DNA of 43,060 bases from Thermithiobacillus tepidarius DSM 3134 (GTDB lineage: Bacteria > Pseudomonadota > Gammaproteobacteria > Acidithiobacillales > Thermithiobacillaceae): positions 1 through 43,060 of the forward strand of contig NZ_AUIS01000024.1 in the NCBI RefSeq assembly GCF_000423825.1, in the 5' to 3' direction. The notes beneath the pieces are model-generated. The model ran no database searches and had not been told where the DNA came from. It was given only the letters and a program-made list of their open reading frames with translations. A program made the translations under genes and the position numbers. Of the stretch, positions 26,941 to 34,317 are shown piece by piece. How positions within the stretch are numbered: the stretch's first letter is position 1; each line of letters opens with the position of its first letter.

Positions 26941-27750
26941 CTAAGCCCGCCCCGCCCGCTCCCGCCAATACTCGGCCCGCGCCGGGTCCGGAAAGAAGCC
27001 GAGCTGGCCGCGCTCCAGGGCGGTGGCCAGCACTTCCATGGCGTCCTGGTGGCCGGCCTCCGCGGCCCGCTCCAGCCATTGGCCGCTGGCCTTGAGGTCG
27101 AGCTCGCGGCCGAGCTTGCCCGTGCCCAGGGCCAGGGCCACGTTGAACATGGCGCGCTTGTTGCCGAGCTCGGCGGCGTGCAGGAACCAGTCGAAGGCGT
27201 AGTCGTCGCTTTGCGGCACGCCGCGACCATCCGCGTAGAGCACGCCCATGGCGAAGGCGCCGTCGGCGTGGCCGTGCTCGCCTGCCCGGGCATACCAGTA
27301 GGCCGCTTTGGGGTAATCGCCCAGTTGCTCGAAGACCACGCCCAGGTGGTACATGGAGTCGGCGAAGCCCTGCTCGGCCGCCTGGCTGAACCAGTGGATG
27401 GCCTGGTCGGGCTGCACCGCGGTGCCCTGGCCCTCGAAATACATGGCCCCCAGGTTGTGCATGGCCGCCACCACGCCCTGCTCCGCCGCCCGTTTGTACC
27501 AGTTGAGCGCCCACTTCTCGCTCTTGGGCACGCCATAGCCCTTGTGCAGCAGGATGGCGTAGTGCAGCTGCGCCTCGGCGTCGCCCGCCTCGGCCGCCGC
27601 CTTCAGCCAGCGCGCCGCTTCCGCGTAGTCGCGCGGCACCATTTCGCCGGCGGCGTGGGCCAGGCCCAGCAGGCGCATGGCCTCCACGTCGCCCGCCGCG
27701 GCCTGCGCCTGCAGGATCTGCAACTCCTCGGCCGTCAATTCCGTGCTCAT
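26941..27750 (-). CDS. Sel1-repeat (TPR-like) protein
   Basis: A 269-residue protein made almost wholly of seven Sel1-like repeats of about 32-37 residues (for example AEAQLHYAILLHKGYGVP and VAAMHNLGAMYFEGQGTA). They form an alpha-solenoid for protein binding. No signal peptide or membrane segment is seen at MSTELTAEEL, so it should be cytoplasmic. Partner and role are unknown. The ATG at 27750 has GGGCGGGGC upstream as a weak ribosome site. It is divergent from rlmJ across 74 bp. Confidence 0.9.
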   Translation of the reverse strand: MSTELTAEELQILQAQAAAGDVEAMRLLGLAHAAGEMVPRDYAEAARWLKAAAEAGDAEAQLHYAILLHKGYGVPKSEKWALNWYKRAAEQGVVAAMHNLGAMYFEGQGTAVQPDQAIHWFSQAAEQGFADSMYHLGVVFEQLGDYPKAAYWYARAGEHGHADGAFAMGVLYADGRGVPQSDDYAFDWFLHAAELGNKRAMFNVALALGTGKLGRELDLKASGQWLERAAEAGHQDAMEVLATALERGQLGFFPDPARAEYWRERAGRA

Positions 27751-27824
27751 GCCCCGCCCTCTCGCGCGAATCGCGCGCCCAAAGATGCTAAGATGCCGTT
27801 GAACCCCGTATTTTAACCGCAAGC

Positions 27825-28655
27825 ATGAACTACGACCACAGCTATCACGCCGGCAATCTGGCCGACGTCTTCAAGCACCTGGCCCTGACCCTGGCCGTGC
27901 AGGCCATGGGCCGCAAGGACAAGGGCTTCGTCTACATCGACACCCACGCCGGCGCCGGGGCCTACGCCCTCGACCCGGGCGGCGAGCACGAGGGCGGCAT
28001 CGGCCGCGTCTGGCCCAAGCGCCGCGAGCTGCCCAGCGCGGCAGCCTACTTCGACGCCGTCGCCGGCCTCAACCCCGCCGGCGCGCTCCGCCATTATCCC
28101 GGCTCGCCGCTGTTGGCCAAAGCCCTCCTGCGCCCCCAGGACCGCCTGGTGCTCTTCGAGACCCAACCCCTGGTGCTGCAGCGCCTCGGCCAGAATCTCG
28201 GCGCCGGCAAGGGCGTCCAAGCCTTCCAGAAGGACGGCCATCAGGGGCTGCTGGCGCAGATCCCGCCGCCGGAGAAGCGCGGCCTCATCCTCATCGACCC
28301 GCCCTTCGAGGCCCGCGACGAGTTCGAGCGGCTCACCCGCACCCTGGCCGGCGCCTGGAAGAAATGGCCGCAGGGCGTGTATCTGGCCTGGTACCCCATC
28401 AAGGCGCGCGGCATCATCGCCGCCTTCCATCGCAAGCTGCGCGAAAGCGGCGTGCCCGCCACCGCGGTGGAGCTCCTCAACCGTCCCGAGGACAAGCCCG
28501 AGCGCCTGAACGGCAGCGGCCTCATCGTCGTCAATCCGCCCTGGCAGTTCCTGGACCAGCTCCTGCCCCTGCTCGCCCAGCTCGCCCCCCTCTGCGCCGA
28601 CCCGAAGACCGGCAGCCGCTGGTCCGTGCGCCTGGAAGGCTGGCCCGGGAGCTGA
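27825..28655 (+). CDS. rlmJ: 23S rRNA (adenine2030-N6)-methyltransferase
   Basis: A 276-residue RlmJ (YhiR) protein that methylates A2030 of 23S rRNA. The MNYDHSYHAGNLADVFKHLAL opening is diagnostic, followed by YIDTHAGAGAY (SAM-binding region). The catalytic motif IV is LIDPPFE (about residues 154-160), and GLIVVNPPWQFL near the end is also conserved. Length is standard. First gene on the plus strand after the Sel1 gene. Confidence 0.96.
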   Translation: MNYDHSYHAGNLADVFKHLALTLAVQAMGRKDKGFVYIDTHAGAGAYALDPGGEHEGGIGRVWPKRRELPSAAAYFDAVAGLNPAGALRHYPGSPLLAKALLRPQDRLVLFETQPLVLQRLGQNLGAGKGVQAFQKDGHQGLLAQIPPPEKRGLILIDPPFEARDEFERLTRTLAGAWKKWPQGVYLAWYPIKARGIIAAFHRKLRESGVPATAVELLNRPEDKPERLNGSGLIVVNPPWQFLDQLLPLLAQLAPLCADPKTGSRWSVRLEGWPGS

Positions 28656-28684
28656 TTGTTGGGCAAAATAGCGCCTGCATTTTC

Positions 28685-28710
28685 ACAGGAGCGAGCCTTC
28701 TCGCGATCAG
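28685..28710 (+). repeat. Single REP unit after rlmJ
   Basis: The 79-bp gap holds GGAGCGAGCCTTCTCGCGATC, a direct REP copy closely matching those at 21692 and 26695. It lies 25 bp before the next gene and could form a hairpin between rlmJ and the downstream genes. Confidence 0.75.
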
Positions 28711-28734
28711 CGCAGCCATACACAAGGAAAGACC

Positions 28735-29049
28735 ATGACCTTCGCGGAAAACCTCGCCAAGCTGCCCAAGGTGGACAAGATCCAAAAGCTGCAGCTCTAC
28801 GGCGGCACCCACTCCGAACTCCTCGGCGAAATCGAGAACAAGCCCGGCCAGTCCGGCTCGGTGGCGGTGTACTACCACCTCGGCGTGAAGTACGGCGCCA
28901 TCAGCCCCAAGGCCGCCAAGGAGGGCCTGGAACTCTACGCCGAGCACACGGACGATGCCCGCGCCCATCCCGGCAAGCACCCCAACATCGACCGGCTCTT
29001 CCAGATCATCGAGTCGGGCGACTTCGTCTCCGTGCGCGTCGTCGAGTAA
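28735..29049 (+). CDS. Small conserved protein, DUF2322-like
   Basis: A 104-residue soluble protein beginning MTFAENLAKLPKVDKI and containing GSVAVYYHLGVKYGAISPKAAKEG and HPGKHPNIDRL. I recognise this pattern as DUF2322, a family of unknown function; the match is from memory. No signal peptide, membrane segment or catalytic motif is visible. The ribosome site AAGGAAAG precedes the ATG. The next gene starts 4 bp after its stop, so it is co-translated with an exonuclease. Confidence 0.8.
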   Translation: MTFAENLAKLPKVDKIQKLQLYGGTHSELLGEIENKPGQSGSVAVYYHLGVKYGAISPKAAKEGLELYAEHTDDARAHPGKHPNIDRLFQIIESGDFVSVRVVE

Positions 29050-29053
29050 ATCC

Positions 29054-29821
29054 TTGCTGATCTACTGCTGGAACATCAACGGCATCCGCGCCGCCGAAAA
29101 GAAGGGCCTGCTCGCCTGGCTGACGCAGACCGCCCCGGACGTGCTCTGCCTGCAGGAGACCAAGGCCGATCCAATCGAGCTGTCAGACCAGCTGCTCCGT
29201 CCGCCCGGCTACCGGAGCTACTGGGCCGCGGCGGAAAAGAAGGGCTACAGCGGCGTGGCCACCTACTGCAAGCAGGCGCCCACCGCCTGGCGGGTCGGGC
29301 TCGGCATCGAGCGCTTCGACCGCGAGGGCCGCGTGCTCATGACCGAGCACGGCGACTTCGAGCTCTACAACGTCTACTTCCCCAACGGCAAGGCCAGCCC
29401 CGAGCGCCTGGCCTACAAGCTCGACTTCTACGACGCCTTCCTGGCCCACGTCGACGCCCGCGTCCAGGCCGGCAAGCAAGTCATCTTCTGCGGCGACGTG
29501 AACACCGCCCATCAGCCGGTGGACCTCGCCCGCCCCCGGGAGAACGAAAAGATCTCCGGCTTCCTGCCCGAGGAGCGCGCCCACCTGGACAAGTGGCTCG
29601 CCCACGGCTGGGTGGACGTCTTCCGCCACCTGCACCCGGATGCCCGCGACGCCTACACCTGGTGGAGCCTGCGCACCAACGCCCGCGCCCGCAACGTGGG
29701 TTGGCGCATCGACTACTTCTTCGTGCACCAGCGCTGCCTGCCCCGGATCAAGGCCGCCGGCATCGCCGCCGATGTCATGGGCGCCGACCACTGCCCCCAC
29801 TGGATCGAAGTCCATGACTAA
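29054..29821 (+). CDS. Exodeoxyribonuclease III family nuclease (second copy, ExoA-like)
   Basis: A 255-residue EEP nuclease. Motifs: YCWNINGIRAAEKKG, LCLQETKAD (Glu), GDVNTAHQPVDLARPRENE, WRIDYFFVHQ and the terminal GADHCPHWIEV with catalytic Asp-His. The DLARPRENEK and DHCPHW spellings are the ExoA type, distinct from the XthA-type copy at 25059. It begins with a TTG codon at 29054, 4 bp after the previous stop, because the nuclease fold starts there (LLIYCWNINGI) and no ATG fits. The last codons overlap the start of prmB. Likely AP endonuclease/3'-exonuclease. Confidence 0.92.
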   Translation: MLIYCWNINGIRAAEKKGLLAWLTQTAPDVLCLQETKADPIELSDQLLRPPGYRSYWAAAEKKGYSGVATYCKQAPTAWRVGLGIERFDREGRVLMTEHGDFELYNVYFPNGKASPERLAYKLDFYDAFLAHVDARVQAGKQVIFCGDVNTAHQPVDLARPRENEKISGFLPEERAHLDKWLAHGWVDVFRHLHPDARDAYTWWSLRTNARARNVGWRIDYFFVHQRCLPRIKAAGIAADVMGADHCPHWIEVHD

Positions 29822-30827
29822 AACCCCCAGGCCCCCCAAGACCAAGCAGACCTCTCCCGCAGCCCCACAGGGCAGGCGCGCGCCTGCTCGCGAGTCCCAC
29901 GCCGGCGATGCCTCCAGTTACGGCGCCGAGACCCTGGCCCACTTCGTCACCATCCGCGACTACCTGCGCTGGGCCGTCACCCGCTTCGAGGCCGCCGGCC
30001 TCGACTACAGCCAGGGGCGCCAGACCGCCCGCGCCGAGGCGGAATACCTCCTCGCCCGCAGCCTGGGCCTGCAGCCCGAGGAACTCGGCGACTTCCTCGA
30101 CACCCGCCTGCTGCCGGAGGAAAAGACCCGCGTGCTCGCCGCCCTGCGCCAGCGCGAGATCGAACGCAAGCCCGCCGCCTACATCACCCACGAAGCCTGG
30201 TTCTGCGGCCTCAAGTTCTACGTGGACGAGCGCGTGCTCATCCCGCGCAGCCTGCTGGAGGAGTTCATCGAGGAAGGCTTCCAGCCCTGGGTCGATCCCA
30301 ACCACGTTCACCGCATCCTCGACCTCTGCACCGGCAGCGGCTGCATCGCCATCAGCTTGGCCTACGCCTTCCAGGGCGCCCAGGTGGACGCCGCCGACAT
30401 CTCCGCCGACGCCCTGGAAGTCACCCGCCGCAACATCGCGGCCCACGGCGTGCAGGACTACGTCCACCCGGTCCAGTCCGACCTCTTCGGGAACCTGCAG
30501 GGCCGCCGCTATGACCTCATCGTCAGCAACCCGCCCTACGTGGACGCCGCCGCCATGGCCGAGCTCCCCGCCGAGTATCATCGCGAACCAGCCCTGGCCC
30601 TGGCCGCCGGCGACACCGGCCTGGACTGCGTCATCCCCCTCCTCCGCCACGCCGCCGAGCACCTCACCGAGCACGGCGTTCTGGTGGTGGAAGTGGGCGA
30701 CAGCGAAACCGCCCTGCAGCAGCGCTACCCGGACGTACCCTTCCTGTGGCTGGAGCACAGCGCGGGAGGCTCGGGGATTTTCCTGCTGACGGCAGAACAG
30801 CTGCGGGAGCATGCGGGGCGGTGGTAG
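29814..30827 (+). CDS. prmB: Ribosomal protein uL3 glutamine methyltransferase
   Basis: A 337-residue PrmB/HemK-family enzyme that methylates Gln of ribosomal protein uL3. The N-terminal helical domain (VTIRDYLRWAVTRFEAA, about residue 47 on) precedes the Rossmann domain with ILDLCTGSGCIAISLA and the catalytic NPPY motif (IVSNPPYVDAA). The fold-spanning part matches PrmB length; the extra first 45 residues are Pro/Lys/Ala-rich and partly encoded by a REP-like repeat. The ATG at 29814 overlaps the exonuclease stop. A later start is possible but no good codon with a ribosome site is apparent. Confidence 0.92.
   Translation: MTKTPRPPKTKQTSPAAPQGRRAPARESHAGDASSYGAETLAHFVTIRDYLRWAVTRFEAAGLDYSQGRQTARAEAEYLLARSLGLQPEELGDFLDTRLLPEEKTRVLAALRQREIERKPAAYITHEAWFCGLKFYVDERVLIPRSLLEEFIEEGFQPWVDPNHVHRILDLCTGSGCIAISLAYAFQGAQVDAADISADALEVTRRNIAAHGVQDYVHPVQSDLFGNLQGRRYDLIVSNPPYVDAAAMAELPAEYHREPALALAAGDTGLDCVIPLLRHAAEHLTEHGVLVVEVGDSETALQQRYPDVPFLWLEHSAGGSGIFLLTAEQLREHAGRW
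29867..29896 (+). repeat. REP-like sequence within the 5' end of prmB
   Basis: The stretch containing ACAGGGCAGGCGCGCG followed by CCTGCTCGCGAGTC resembles the window's REP units and falls in frame inside the non-conserved N-terminal tail of prmB (encoding roughly QGRRAPARESHA). It is more degenerate than the intergenic copies. Confidence 0.45.
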
Positions 30828-31088
30828 GCAGCGCCGGAGCAAACCCTTTTGGCACATGGTGAGGGCTGGCTTTCGAAGAAATAACATGGCCAAAAGCGGG
30901 TACAATTCGGCCGTCATACTCAATCGCTTGCTAAAGTTTGAGAGCATCTTCCCGACATAGTAGCAATACCGATCTGACCATTCGAAGCTGGCGCAGCAAC
31001 AGTGTCTGCAAAGCCGCTACGCTGCCTTGTGCAATACGCAAATTCGTGAAACACCACACTTGAATGATGCAGCCGAACTCAAGCGGCC
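30828..31088. other. Intergenic region without a visible gene
   Basis: About 260 bp between prmB and the promoter of the lipoprotein operon. It is AT-richer than the housekeeping genes on its left, so the composition change begins here rather than at the CsgG start codon. No open frame with a ribosome site, no RNA gene and no REP unit was recognised. Confidence 0.4.
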
Positions 31089-31117
31089 TTGACTCCTTTC
31101 ATACTCCCGCCTATAAA
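31089..31117 (+). promoter_or_regulatory. Strong predicted sigma70 promoter of the CsgG lipoprotein operon
   Basis: TTGACT at 31089-31094, a 17-bp spacer, then TATAAA at 31112-31117: 5 of 6 consensus bases in each box. Predicted transcription start near 31124 gives a 5' leader of about 58 nt before the ATG at 31182. A small CCTGC-TTTG-GCAGG hairpin (around 31145-31158) lies in the leader. Confidence 0.7.
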
Positions 31118-31181
31118 CAACAGCAACCACAAGAAACATGCTGACCTGCTTTGGCAGGATACAAAAACAATAAGGTGTCCA

Positions 31182-32156
31182 ATGAAATCTGGTATTCGCC
31201 CATTATCCATGGCTTGCGCTGTTTCATTGCTCGCAGGCTGCGCCACCGTCCCTGCTTCACCCACCAAAGTTGATGCACCCGTATCGCGCATGGCGCAAGA
31301 AGAGGCGCAGAAAAACCTCAGCGTGCCTCCTACCAAGACCCTCAAGCGCAAGGTTGCCATAGCCAGGTTCAGCAATGAGACCCGTTACGGCAGATCCCTC
31401 CTGCGGGACTCAGACCTGGATCCATTGGGGAAGCAAGCATCGGATATGCTTGCTAACCGACTGGTTGCGTCAGGCAACTTCCTGGTTTTCGAGCGCCCAG
31501 ACATCGAAAAGATCAAGCGGGAACAAGCGGTCTCGAGCAAGGCGGATCTGATCGGTGTGGACACCCTGATCGTGGGGTCGGTAACTGAGTTTGGAAGATC
31601 CACCACTGGCAAAGCCGGCTTCCTAAGTTCCACCAAGAGACAGACAGCCAAAGCAAAGGTTGAAGTCAGGCTGGTCGATGTCAAAACCGGCCACGTCTTC
31701 TTCTCTACCACCGGTTCCGGAGAAGCCAGCACCGAATCGGGAGAAGTGGCCGGCTTCGGTAGCCGCGCAGATTACGACGCCACGCTCAACGACCGGGCGA
31801 TTGCGGCAGCCATTTCGGACGTTTTGACCGGATTGATCACCAAGATGGAAGAACGGCCATGGCGGACCGACATTCTGCAGATTAACGGGAATCAGGTGTT
31901 CATCAGCGGCGGTCAACACCAAGGACTGAAGGTTGGCGATACGCTGGCCATCATGCAGGAAGGCAAGAAGGTAAAGAGTAAGCAATCCGGGTTCGAGATC
32001 ACCTTGCCTGCTACGGAAGTAGGCAGCATCCGGGTCGTCAGCCTGTTCGGCGAATCGGAAACGAACGAAGGAGCCATCTGCGAACTCGTGGCAGGCACAC
32101 TCACAAACTATCCGCTCAACGAGCTTTTCGTGTCCGAAAAGAAGGGTAAGTCATGA
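31182..32156 (+). CDS. CsgG-family outer-membrane lipoprotein
   Basis: A 324-residue CsgG-domain protein. The signal peptide ends in lipobox LLAGC with Cys20. The CsgG core spans roughly residues 55-225 (KRKVAIARFSNETRYG, ASDMLANRLVASGNFLVFERPD, DTLIVGSVTEFG, VEVRLVDVKTGHVF). A C-terminal extension of about 90 residues (ISGGQHQGLKVGDTLAIM) looks like a flagellar-T/curli-assembly style tail. CsgG in curli systems forms a nonameric secretion pore; no curlin genes occur here. Ribosome site AAGGTG. The stop overlaps the next ATG; three more lipoproteins follow. Base composition is clearly less GC-rich than the flanks. Confidence 0.92.
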   Translation: MKSGIRPLSMACAVSLLAGCATVPASPTKVDAPVSRMAQEEAQKNLSVPPTKTLKRKVAIARFSNETRYGRSLLRDSDLDPLGKQASDMLANRLVASGNFLVFERPDIEKIKREQAVSSKADLIGVDTLIVGSVTEFGRSTTGKAGFLSSTKRQTAKAKVEVRLVDVKTGHVFFSTTGSGEASTESGEVAGFGSRADYDATLNDRAIAAAISDVLTGLITKMEERPWRTDILQINGNQVFISGGQHQGLKVGDTLAIMQEGKKVKSKQSGFEITLPATEVGSIRVVSLFGESETNEGAICELVAGTLTNYPLNELFVSEKKGKS

Positions 32157-32473
32157 GGAACCTCGCCCTGTTTACCCTGACTATCGTACTGCTCGGTGGT
32201 TGCGCTTACCCTACGAGCGAAGTCAAGACCACCGACAATCGGGCAAGCATTGCTGTACAAGGTGCTCCCGAGGATGCTGTCTTGTACATTGACGGCCTCT
32301 CCATGGGAAGGGTGGCTCATTTCGATGGCAAATCCAAAGTACTCCTCATAGAACCGGGGATCCACAAAGTGGAAATAGTAAACCACAACAAAGTGCTGCT
32401 ATCAGAAAAAGCTTTCCTCGGGACCGGAGAATTAAAAACCTTCACCATGACAGGGGTAAACGATAACCAATGA
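32153..32473 (+). CDS. Small lipoprotein, PEGA-like
   Basis: A 106-residue lipoprotein with lipobox LLGGC and Cys17. The mature part is beta-rich and contains a PEDAVLYIDGLSMGRVAHFDG segment and an IEPGIHKVEIVNHNKVLL segment, like PEGA-type surface beta domains; the family match is tentative. Overlapping starts and stops on both sides (ATGA at 32153, and again at 32470) tie it to CsgG and DUF4810 in one transcript. Function unknown; probably a subunit of the same envelope complex. Confidence 0.85.
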   Translation: MRNLALFTLTIVLLGGCAYPTSEVKTTDNRASIAVQGAPEDAVLYIDGLSMGRVAHFDGKSKVLLIEPGIHKVEIVNHNKVLLSEKAFLGTGELKTFTMTGVNDNQ

Positions 32474-32868
32474 AAGCAAAGCAAATCCCCGTAGCCATCG
32501 GCCTGCTCTTAGCCATGACCGGGTGCGCGACCAACCCGCAAAAGTACTCCTGGGGCGGTTATGAGAAAGGGCTTTATCAATATTATAAAAATCCTGCGAG
32601 TTCAGAAGATCTTGCCGAGAAGCTAGCGCAAGCGATCGAATCTGGAGAGCAGAAGGGGAATGTACCCCCAGGCATTTACGCCGAGTACGGCTATCTGCTT
32701 TACACCTCCGGAAAGAAGGCTGAAGCGGTAGCGTATTTTGAAAAGGAAAAGGCAGCATGGCCGGAGTCCAGCATACTGATGGACAAGATGATCAAAAACG
32801 CACAAACCGCCTCAAGCAGCACTCTTACCAAAGCCGAGGACAAACAAGCCGGGGTGGCTTCACGATGA
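32470..32868 (+). CDS. DUF4810 lipoprotein
   Basis: A 132-residue lipoprotein with lipobox MTGC and Cys19. The mature N-terminus YSWGGYEKGLYQYYKNP and the later VPPGIYAEYGYLLYTSGKKAEAVAYFEKEKAAWPESSILM stretch are characteristic of DUF4810, a TPR-like small lipoprotein. This family is regularly encoded between CsgG and DUF799 genes. It overlaps the preceding gene by 4 bp and the following one by 4 bp. Role unknown; likely periplasmic face of the outer membrane. Confidence 0.9.
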   Translation: MKAKQIPVAIGLLLAMTGCATNPQKYSWGGYEKGLYQYYKNPASSEDLAEKLAQAIESGEQKGNVPPGIYAEYGYLLYTSGKKAEAVAYFEKEKAAWPESSILMDKMIKNAQTASSSTLTKAEDKQAGVASR

Positions 32869-33530
32869 CTACAAGCGCCAAACTTATTATTGCCTTTGGG
32901 CTCGTGCTCCTCACCACTGGATGTGCGACTACCCCGCCTTCCAATGACTACACCCAGTTCCGCCAAGCCGATCCCAGGTCCATTCTTGTCGTTCCCGTTG
33001 TAAACCGAAGCGTCGATATCAATGCTCCGGATTACTTCCTCTCGACTATCACTCGCCCCGTGGCTGAGCGCGGCTACTATGTTTTCCCGGTCAACTTGAC
33101 CAAACACCTGCTAGAAGACGATGGTCTCTCGGACGCCGACTTGGTGCATGAAGCAGATCCGAAACGGGTGGCTGAACTATTCGGCGCAGATTCCGTCCTG
33201 TACATCACTATCGATAGATGGGACGCCAAATACGTTCTTCTCTCCACCACGGTTACGGTGAAGTTCAATTACAGTCTCAAGAGTGCCAAGACTGGAGAAG
33301 AGATATGGCACTCGTCCGAAACGATGGTTTACCAGCCACAGAACAACTCAACTGGCAATCCTTTGGGTGATCTCATCGCCGCTGCAGTATCTGCTGCAAT
33401 AACGAAGGCTGCCCCCAATTACATTCCTCTTGCCCAGCAAGCCAACGCCCTTGCTGTTGCCAGACCACACCGCGGGCTCCCTGCAGGGCCTCACTCGGCA
33501 GTGTACAAGAAGGATATGAATCTATTTTAA
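32865..33530 (+). CDS. DUF799 (GNA1162-like) lipoprotein
   Basis: A 221-residue lipoprotein with lipobox TTGC (Cys20). Conserved DUF799 blocks: RSILVVPVVNRSVDINAPDYFLST, RGYYVFPVNLTKHLLEDDGL, ELFGADSVLYITIDRWDAKY, TGNPLGDLIAAAVSAAITKAAPNY and GLPAGPHS. The Neisseria homologue GNA1162 is an outer-membrane lipoprotein with a TolB-N-like fold. It ends the operon and is followed by a terminator at 33557. With CsgG and DUF4810 it forms a recurrent but functionally uncharacterised module, inferred to be an outer-membrane complex. Confidence 0.92.
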   Translation: MTTSAKLIIAFGLVLLTTGCATTPPSNDYTQFRQADPRSILVVPVVNRSVDINAPDYFLSTITRPVAERGYYVFPVNLTKHLLEDDGLSDADLVHEADPKRVAELFGADSVLYITIDRWDAKYVLLSTTVTVKFNYSLKSAKTGEEIWHSSETMVYQPQNNSTGNPLGDLIAAAVSAAITKAAPNYIPLAQQANALAVARPHRGLPAGPHSAVYKKDMNLF

Positions 33531-33556
33531 CCCAGTTGCTTACCGACCCTCTCATG

Positions 33557-33584
33557 GAACCCGGCCGCCAAAGCGACCGGGTTC
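33557..33584 (+). terminator. Hairpin terminator of the lipoprotein operon
   Basis: GAACCCGG-C-CGC pairs with GCG-A-CCGGGTTC around a CAAA loop, 26 bp after the DUF799 stop, followed by a short TTAT tract. Stem is strong; T-run is short. Confidence 0.7.
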
Positions 33585-33699
33585 TTATGCCTTGACGAAC
33601 AACCAAAAGGCGGTATAGCTTACCGCGCCGCTTCACACCACCCATACCCAGAGAAATTCAACGGCGACTCGCGAGCCATGCACAGGCGGATTATGATCG

Positions 33700-34290
33700 T
33701 TAGTCCTGCGAGCTCTCCTCCCGCCTCCGGCGCTTTCCTTTTGACCATTCCGCACTCTCGAAGCGCTGCCGCGTCTCGTCCATCTTGTCCAGCACCGCTT
33801 CCGGCGCCACGTCCTGGGCCAGCTCGTCCAGCTCCGGGTTTTTCGATTCCTCCACGCCCATGCGTTCGGCCATGGCGGTGACGAGCTGGATCAGCCGGGT
33901 GATTTCATGTTCGGCCAGCAGGCTGATCTGCAGGTCGAGGTCGGCGCGCTTGTCGGCCAGGGCGGCCATGCGGTTCTGGCTGATCAGCACGAAGGTGGAC
34001 AGGAAGATTGCCTCCACCGAGGCGACCATGGCCAGCTTGACGAAGGAGGCGTCGAACTTCGGGATGAAGGGCAGCCAGCCCAGATTGATGGCAATCCACA
34101 AGCCGTAGACGACGAGGTGAATATAGACGAAGCGCATGCTGCCGGTGAAGCGGGTGATGGCGTCGGCGATGCGCTCCTGCATGCCCTTGCGCCGTTCCTC
34201 CGCCCGGCGGCGAGCGAGGAGCGTGCTGATGTTGCGCTCGACCACGTCGGCGAGCTCCGATTGGGCGGATGCTGGCGTCTTGTCGTCCAT
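33700..34290 (-). CDS. DUF1003 inner-membrane protein
   Basis: A 196-residue DUF1003 protein. A cytoplasmic N-tail is followed by two helices near residues 52-75 (FVYIHLVVYGLWIAINLGW) and 84-105 (MVASVEAIFLSTFVLIS). Then comes the conserved QNRMAALADKRADLDLQISLLAEHEITRL amphipathic block and a charged, Lys/Arg-rich C-tail. Function unknown. The ATG at 34290 is preferred because AGGAG lies 5 bp upstream; an ATG seven codons earlier (34311) lacks one. It sits 27 bp downstream of the small thioredoxin/NHL-derived gene. Confidence 0.9.
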   Translation of the reverse strand: MDDKTPASAQSELADVVERNISTLLARRRAEERRKGMQERIADAITRFTGSMRFVYIHLVVYGLWIAINLGWLPFIPKFDASFVKLAMVASVEAIFLSTFVLISQNRMAALADKRADLDLQISLLAEHEITRLIQLVTAMAERMGVEESKNPELDELAQDVAPEAVLDKMDETRQRFESAEWSKGKRRRREESSQD

Positions 34291-34317
34291 CCCTGCTCCT
34301 GTATCGGCCATCGTGCT

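Follow-up and report, generated by a model that had tools for sequence, protein, structure and literature searches.

The closest described relatives of the locus analyzed here are the NMB1162–1164-type gene sets of Neisseria, also present in Haemophilus and Acinetobacter, in which lipoproteins of the same three families (CsgG, DUF4810 and GNA1162, or DUF799) are encoded in the same order and have no assigned function. The meningococcal members of these three-gene relatives appear among the hypothetical lipoproteins reported from outer membrane vesicles (PMC10097807), GNA1162 is a protein of unknown function with a TolB/LptE-like structure (PMC6497663), and biofilms of Haemophilus parasuis and Actinobacillus pleuropneumoniae show increased expression of lipoproteins like NMB1162 and NMB1164 (PMC4245831). 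In the open-access literature we found no paper on DUF4810 and none on the CsgG–DUF4810–GNA1162 set as a whole, in agreement with the first-pass annotation of this DNA, which had described the set as lacking an assigned function.

Further points of comparison come from proteins that resemble the CsgG component in fold. The E. coli CsgG channel shares with it the Pfam CsgG family, the lipoprotein nature and the core fold. PelC, which forms the dodecameric lipoprotein ring of Pel export, likewise has a CsgG-like core (Z ~12) and is a lipoprotein. In the Vibrio H-ring protein FlgT (3w1e, 8z5n) a TolB-N-like middle domain is followed by a C-terminal barrel, as in the protein described below, and TsaP is a LysM protein located around the type IV pilus secretin.

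Organization of the four-gene lipoprotein operon

Thermithiobacillus tepidarius DSM 3134 is a sulfur oxidizer of hot springs with a genome of 2,958,498 bp in 43 scaffolds and a GC content of 66.84% (PMC5037610). The window, that is, the whole stretch of 43,060 nucleotides that was analyzed, carries on its forward strand four ORFs (operon 31182–33530) that overlap by four bases, ATGA, at every junction. They encode a long form of CsgG (31182–32156, 324 aa; PF03783, 121.9 bits versus a cut-off of 20.8), a PEGA-like protein without a Pfam match of its own (32153–32473, 106 aa), a DUF4810 protein (32470–32868, 132 aa; PF16068, 90.6 bits versus 34.7) and a GNA1162-like (DUF799) protein (32865–33530, 221 aa; PF05643, 153.9 bits versus 25.9). 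In all four proteins a lipobox cysteine at residue 17–20 is followed by Ala. Asp at position +2 was absent from every lipobox called, in keeping with sorting to the outer membrane. The ORFs, the ATGA overlaps and the lipoboxes thus all confirm the first-pass description of four overlapping lipoprotein genes forming one self-contained unit, and its CsgG, DUF4810 and DUF799 family calls lie far above the Pfam cut-offs.

A probable σ70 promoter, TTGACT-17-TATAAA, precedes the genes at 31089–31117 (+), where position 31089 is the start of the −35 box and also the start of the operon region as first delimited. This was the sole site in the window with at most two mismatches to the σ70 consensus at a 17-base spacer (0.18 expected), although a stricter promoter scan passes over it on account of the A at its final position. 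As the best promoter-like site in the window, it is consistent with the earlier proposal of a promoter ahead of the operon. The terminator proposed at the other end was borne out in part: a good hairpin is located at 33557–33582 (+; fold z −2.81), but its U-tract is poor, so that it would be a weak intrinsic terminator. Rfam, searched over 30500–34200 for RNA elements, returned nothing at E 0.1.

Of the partner lipoproteins, the GNA1162 protein is related to a solved structure, 4hrv (E 1.2e-29). This structure also turned up when the CsgG model was compared with solved folds, so that two of the four products are related in fold, which is TolB-N-like. The DUF4810 protein showed weak similarity to TPR repeats (TPR_8, E 0.015). 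The PEGA-like protein was modeled (pLDDT 85) as a seven-stranded transthyretin/Ig-like sandwich, whose fold matches were generic (Z up to 6.8); a Foldseek search of the PDB returned no match reaching E 0.001. Pfam PEGA (PF08308) gave weak matches in 9 of 24 family members (best 6.9e-5) and none in the window protein, and the predicted sandwich is compatible with it.

Two versions of the gene set

Loci were gathered by protein search and by means of the GNA1162 family in the class and phylum samples, and the ORFs of their surroundings were scored with four protein profiles. This yielded 49 loci from distant bacteria, so that the recurrence of the CsgG–DUF4810–DUF799 set, as first annotated, holds. 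The set exists in two versions. The commoner one has three genes (25 loci) and a CsgG of 220–233 aa (~225 aa), as in the Neisseria type. In the other (24 loci, including the window), CsgG is ~310–330 aa long and the PEGA-like gene lies right behind it. By contrast with the three-gene loci, where CsgG stops 2–6 aa past the shared core in 25 of 25 cases, the tail past the core measures 92–100 aa in 23 of the 24 four-gene loci. The PEGA-like gene was present in 24/24 four-gene loci, or 27/27 when plasmid copies are included, and in 0/25 three-gene loci; the three plasmid copies also combine it with the CsgG extension. The order CsgG–PEGA-like–DUF4810–GNA1162 was constant in the 24 loci, which come from different classes, and in the three plasmids. 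When 299 genomes were searched with the PEGA-like profile, all nine strong matches fell inside this operon and three more were partial and marginal.

In a tree built from the CsgG core, DUF4810 and GNA1162, the four-gene loci were set apart by one split with a support of 0.97. A single split argues for one event kept through deep divergence rather than for many independent gains, and we conclude that the pairing of the CsgG extension with the PEGA-like gene stems from a single evolutionary event and has since been preserved. The first-pass annotation had called the small PEGA-like member the least known of the four; this stands insofar as the window protein has no Pfam match, but the gene is not incidental, being tied to the CsgG extension.

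A few loci deviate in detail. In the four-gene locus L092 (2232–3050) the CsgG tail is 44 aa long, the C-terminal domain looks truncated, and a 150-base gap, possibly due to a frameshift, separates CsgG from the PEGA-like gene. In L008 (5569–5968) DUF4810 is split across two reading frames, probably by a frameshift or an assembly error. The three-gene locus L082 (3894–5649), with a short CsgG, groups beside the four-gene loci and is a possible intermediate. Some loci come from metagenome bins, the names of which may be wrong: L009, from a MAG labelled Cytophagaceae, and L016, from a Henriciella MAG, have identical operon scores and coordinates, which suggests that one of the two taxon labels, if not both, is mistaken; the pair was counted once.

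Composition and probable mobility of the operon

Each of the operon genes has a GC fraction of 0.495–0.557, compared with 0.684 for the window. The operon as a whole stands at 0.534, whereas windows of equal size drawn from 360 kb of genome samples and from the rest of the window averaged 0.669 (sd 0.030), none of 316 being as low. Its tetranucleotide distance was 0.506, against 0.226 ± 0.043 in the controls, and was reached by none of 142 control windows. The lower GC reported earlier relative to the flanks is therefore real, and the comparison with the genome indicates that this level is not normal for the organism.

Among the 49 good-quality genomes of the relatives sample, GNA1162 was found in the host alone, and the host genome contains one CsgG copy. 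The neighbors of the operon in the window are rlmJ, xth, prmB, DUF1003 and copC/copD genes. In the sister genus the rlmJ–DUF2322–xth–prmB block (window 26965–30811) is collinear at 77–80% identity, after which synteny stops and a histidine kinase gene takes the place of the operon. A clean two-sided empty site was not demonstrable there, as sister-genus synteny ends at prmB and the DUF1003 gene is on another contig. In the window the DUF1003 gene (33703–34311, −) adjoins the operon, a second copy with 45% identity lies on host contig C2, and the sister-genus relative of the window gene sits away from prmB.

The four-gene unit is also carried by Novosphingobium plasmid pLA5, Polaromonas plasmid pPNAP04 and a Paraburkholderia megaplasmid. 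On pPNAP04 an IS5 transposase gene lies upstream of the unit, and a tellurite-resistance-like cluster of TerD, TerY, VWA and PP2C genes follows it directly (L157, 5706–10573). On pLA5 (L156, 1–10606) the unit is surrounded by surface polysaccharide genes (glycosyltransferases, kdsA, kpsF, kdsB) and by a gene for an outer membrane beta-barrel protein. At the operon itself, a search for mobile element ends found neither meaningful repeats nor a tRNA. Phages provided just two partial CsgG matches, both in Acinetobacter phage records. In the tree the window grouped with an Acidobacteria MAG at a support of just 0.29, which is too low to point to a donor.

Taken together, the composition, the absence in relatives, the stop of sister-genus synteny and the plasmid copies support horizontal acquisition well, and the operon, for which such an origin had been raised as possible, probably reached the T. 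tepidarius genome by horizontal transfer.

Predicted fold of the long CsgG and possible role of the complex

The AlphaFold model of the long CsgG (pLDDT 77) comprises a CsgG/TolB-N-like core (~52–227) and a separate C-terminal barrel (~228–322). The model matched FlgT 8z5n over core and barrel with Z 17.5 (4.3 Å over 234 residues, model 40–321) and FlgT 3w1e with Z 15.2, the FlgT matches spanning residues ~40–323. Curli CsgG matched over 156 residues (Z 12.7), and CsgG, PelC and TolB, at Z 11–13, covered only the core, 52–228. As far as the predicted structure goes, the middle and C-terminal domains of FlgT thus fit the long CsgG better and over a greater length than curli CsgG does. At the sequence level, all 24 four-gene CsgG proteins matched PF03783 (CsgG) and 10 of them TolB_N; matches to FlgT_C were weak (E 0.015 in the window protein and 0.0027 in one relative), and FlgT_M was matched in one four-gene relative at 1.6e-5. 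The LysM-protein chain 6ve2_O matched profile positions 241–289, in the C-terminal part of the barrel, at 6e-4, and TsaP itself at 0.27. Another resemblance of the barrel (Z ~9) is to the barrel at the N terminus of V/A-ATPase subunits. From the model, the extra ~95 aa of the long CsgG probably form a FlgT_C/TsaP-like barrel. The long CsgG differs from TsaP in having neither a LysM domain nor a pilus gene neighbor. Elsewhere in the host genome (G000:C13:35698–35796), a 378-aa frame outside the operon gave a weak FlgT_C match and is possibly the host TsaP.

Given that FlgT is the best structural match, the complex could be an accessory ring in the flagellar motor, replacing or supplementing FlgT, FlgO and FlgP as an equivalent of the H-ring. 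T. tepidarius DSM 3134 has a single polar flagellum (PMC5037610), and FlgH was detected in 20 of 21 four-gene genomes. Against the background of 248 out of 299 in the phylum sample, however, this frequency is no clear excess, and a flagellar link based on FlgH co-occurrence was rejected as unsupported. Moreover, one four-gene genome of 96% completeness is devoid of FlgH, the unit recurs beside no neighbor gene, and some of the genomes encode a real FlgT elsewhere (a clear FlgT_C match in three, a weaker one in a fourth). Unlike FlgT, the long CsgG has a lipid anchor in place of FlgT_N (the match starts at FlgT residue 95–106, and ~50 residues precede the core in the long CsgG), and no linkage to flagellar genes was seen. 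Considering the lack of FlgH excess, the FlgH-less genome and the separate FlgT, we retain FlgT as the closest structural relative without assigning its flagellar function to the complex; a flagellar role is improbable.

The first-pass annotation had pointed out that CsgG can form an outer membrane secretion pore. Accordingly, the long CsgG might be a curli-like outer membrane pore that secretes a cargo encoded elsewhere, its partner lipoproteins acting as chaperones or gates, and its PF03783 membership and the presence of two hairpins equivalent to the transmembrane hairpins of CsgG speak for this. Hairpin 2 has about the E. coli length (33 versus 32 residues), but hairpin 1 is shorter (26 versus 32), and both are far more polar, with hydrophobic fractions of 0.22 and 0.23 (four-gene means) versus 0.34 and 0.44 in E. 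coli CsgG. The constriction residues of E. coli CsgG, which we take to be Y51, N55 and F56 in mature numbering, are replaced by L, S and D in the window protein, and across the 24 four-gene loci the three positions are most often occupied by F/L, E/G and D/N. CsgF gave no match in the host genome and was absent from 19 of 21 four-gene genomes, being found in two, and, unlike in the E. coli curli system, no curli genes are linked to the operon. Flanks of up to 7 kb of the 24 four-gene and 25 three-gene loci were clustered all against all, and no neighbor or cargo recurred over the 49 loci beyond common families or close kin, which extends the earlier remark that no known cargo is present at the locus. 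PelC, which forms a ring without a transmembrane barrel, shows that lipoproteins of the CsgG fold can assemble into rings that do not cross the membrane. The long CsgG differs from PelC in its extra C-terminal domain, its three partner lipoproteins and the lack of recurrent export genes alongside. Although each is modest alone, the polar hairpins, the missing constriction triad, the absence of CsgF and the lack of a recurrent neighbor make a curli-type channel unlikely on the basis of sequence, as does the additional FlgT-like domain, and we regard secretion of an unlinked cargo as an unlikely function.

In a further candidate role, the complex would activate or position peptidoglycan synthesis from the outer membrane in the manner of LpoB. 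Pfam LpoB was matched by 7 of 24 long CsgG proteins (best 3.8e-5), and TIGR02722 gave weak matches on both CsgG and GNA1162. These reached 14.3 and 17.3 bits in the window proteins, however, against a cut-off of 110.55 for this equivalog family; the similarity may reflect the shared fold alone, and no penicillin-binding protein was among the recurrent neighbors. We consider an LpoB-like role to be improbable.

The reading that we favor, and to which we give an even chance, is that the operon encodes a horizontally acquired, outer membrane-anchored and periplasm-facing lipoprotein ring or scaffold of FlgT/PelC-like rather than curli-type pore character. By analogy with PelC, CsgG and FlgT, the core of the long CsgG would oligomerize as a ring, from which the FlgT_C/TsaP-type barrel would project, probably providing the surface on which the PEGA-like lipoprotein docks. 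The TPR-like DUF4810 protein and GNA1162, with its second TolB-N-like fold, would complete the complex, which may serve as a scaffold or stabilizer between the outer membrane and the periplasm. Such a role would not be specific to this fold, as TolB-N-like folds serve many roles, including PBP activation, LptE and TolB. More tentatively, the unit might be a relative of the H-ring that has no flagellar role and has so far not been described. It would then be a mobile outer membrane ring of four lipoproteins, serving many bacteria as an envelope scaffold, with an obligate sub-complex made up of a dedicated PEGA-like lipoprotein and a CsgG core to which a FlgT-type barrel is fused.

CsgG–DUF4810–GNA1162 sets are widespread in Gram-negative bacteria, including pathogens, where GNA1162 was once a vaccine candidate. 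The automatically assigned label "curli production assembly/transport component" is probably misleading for the long CsgG. By showing that the CsgG extension and the PEGA-like protein go together, the four-gene variant offers a sharp, testable clue and connects the set to the ring modules of FlgT and TsaP.
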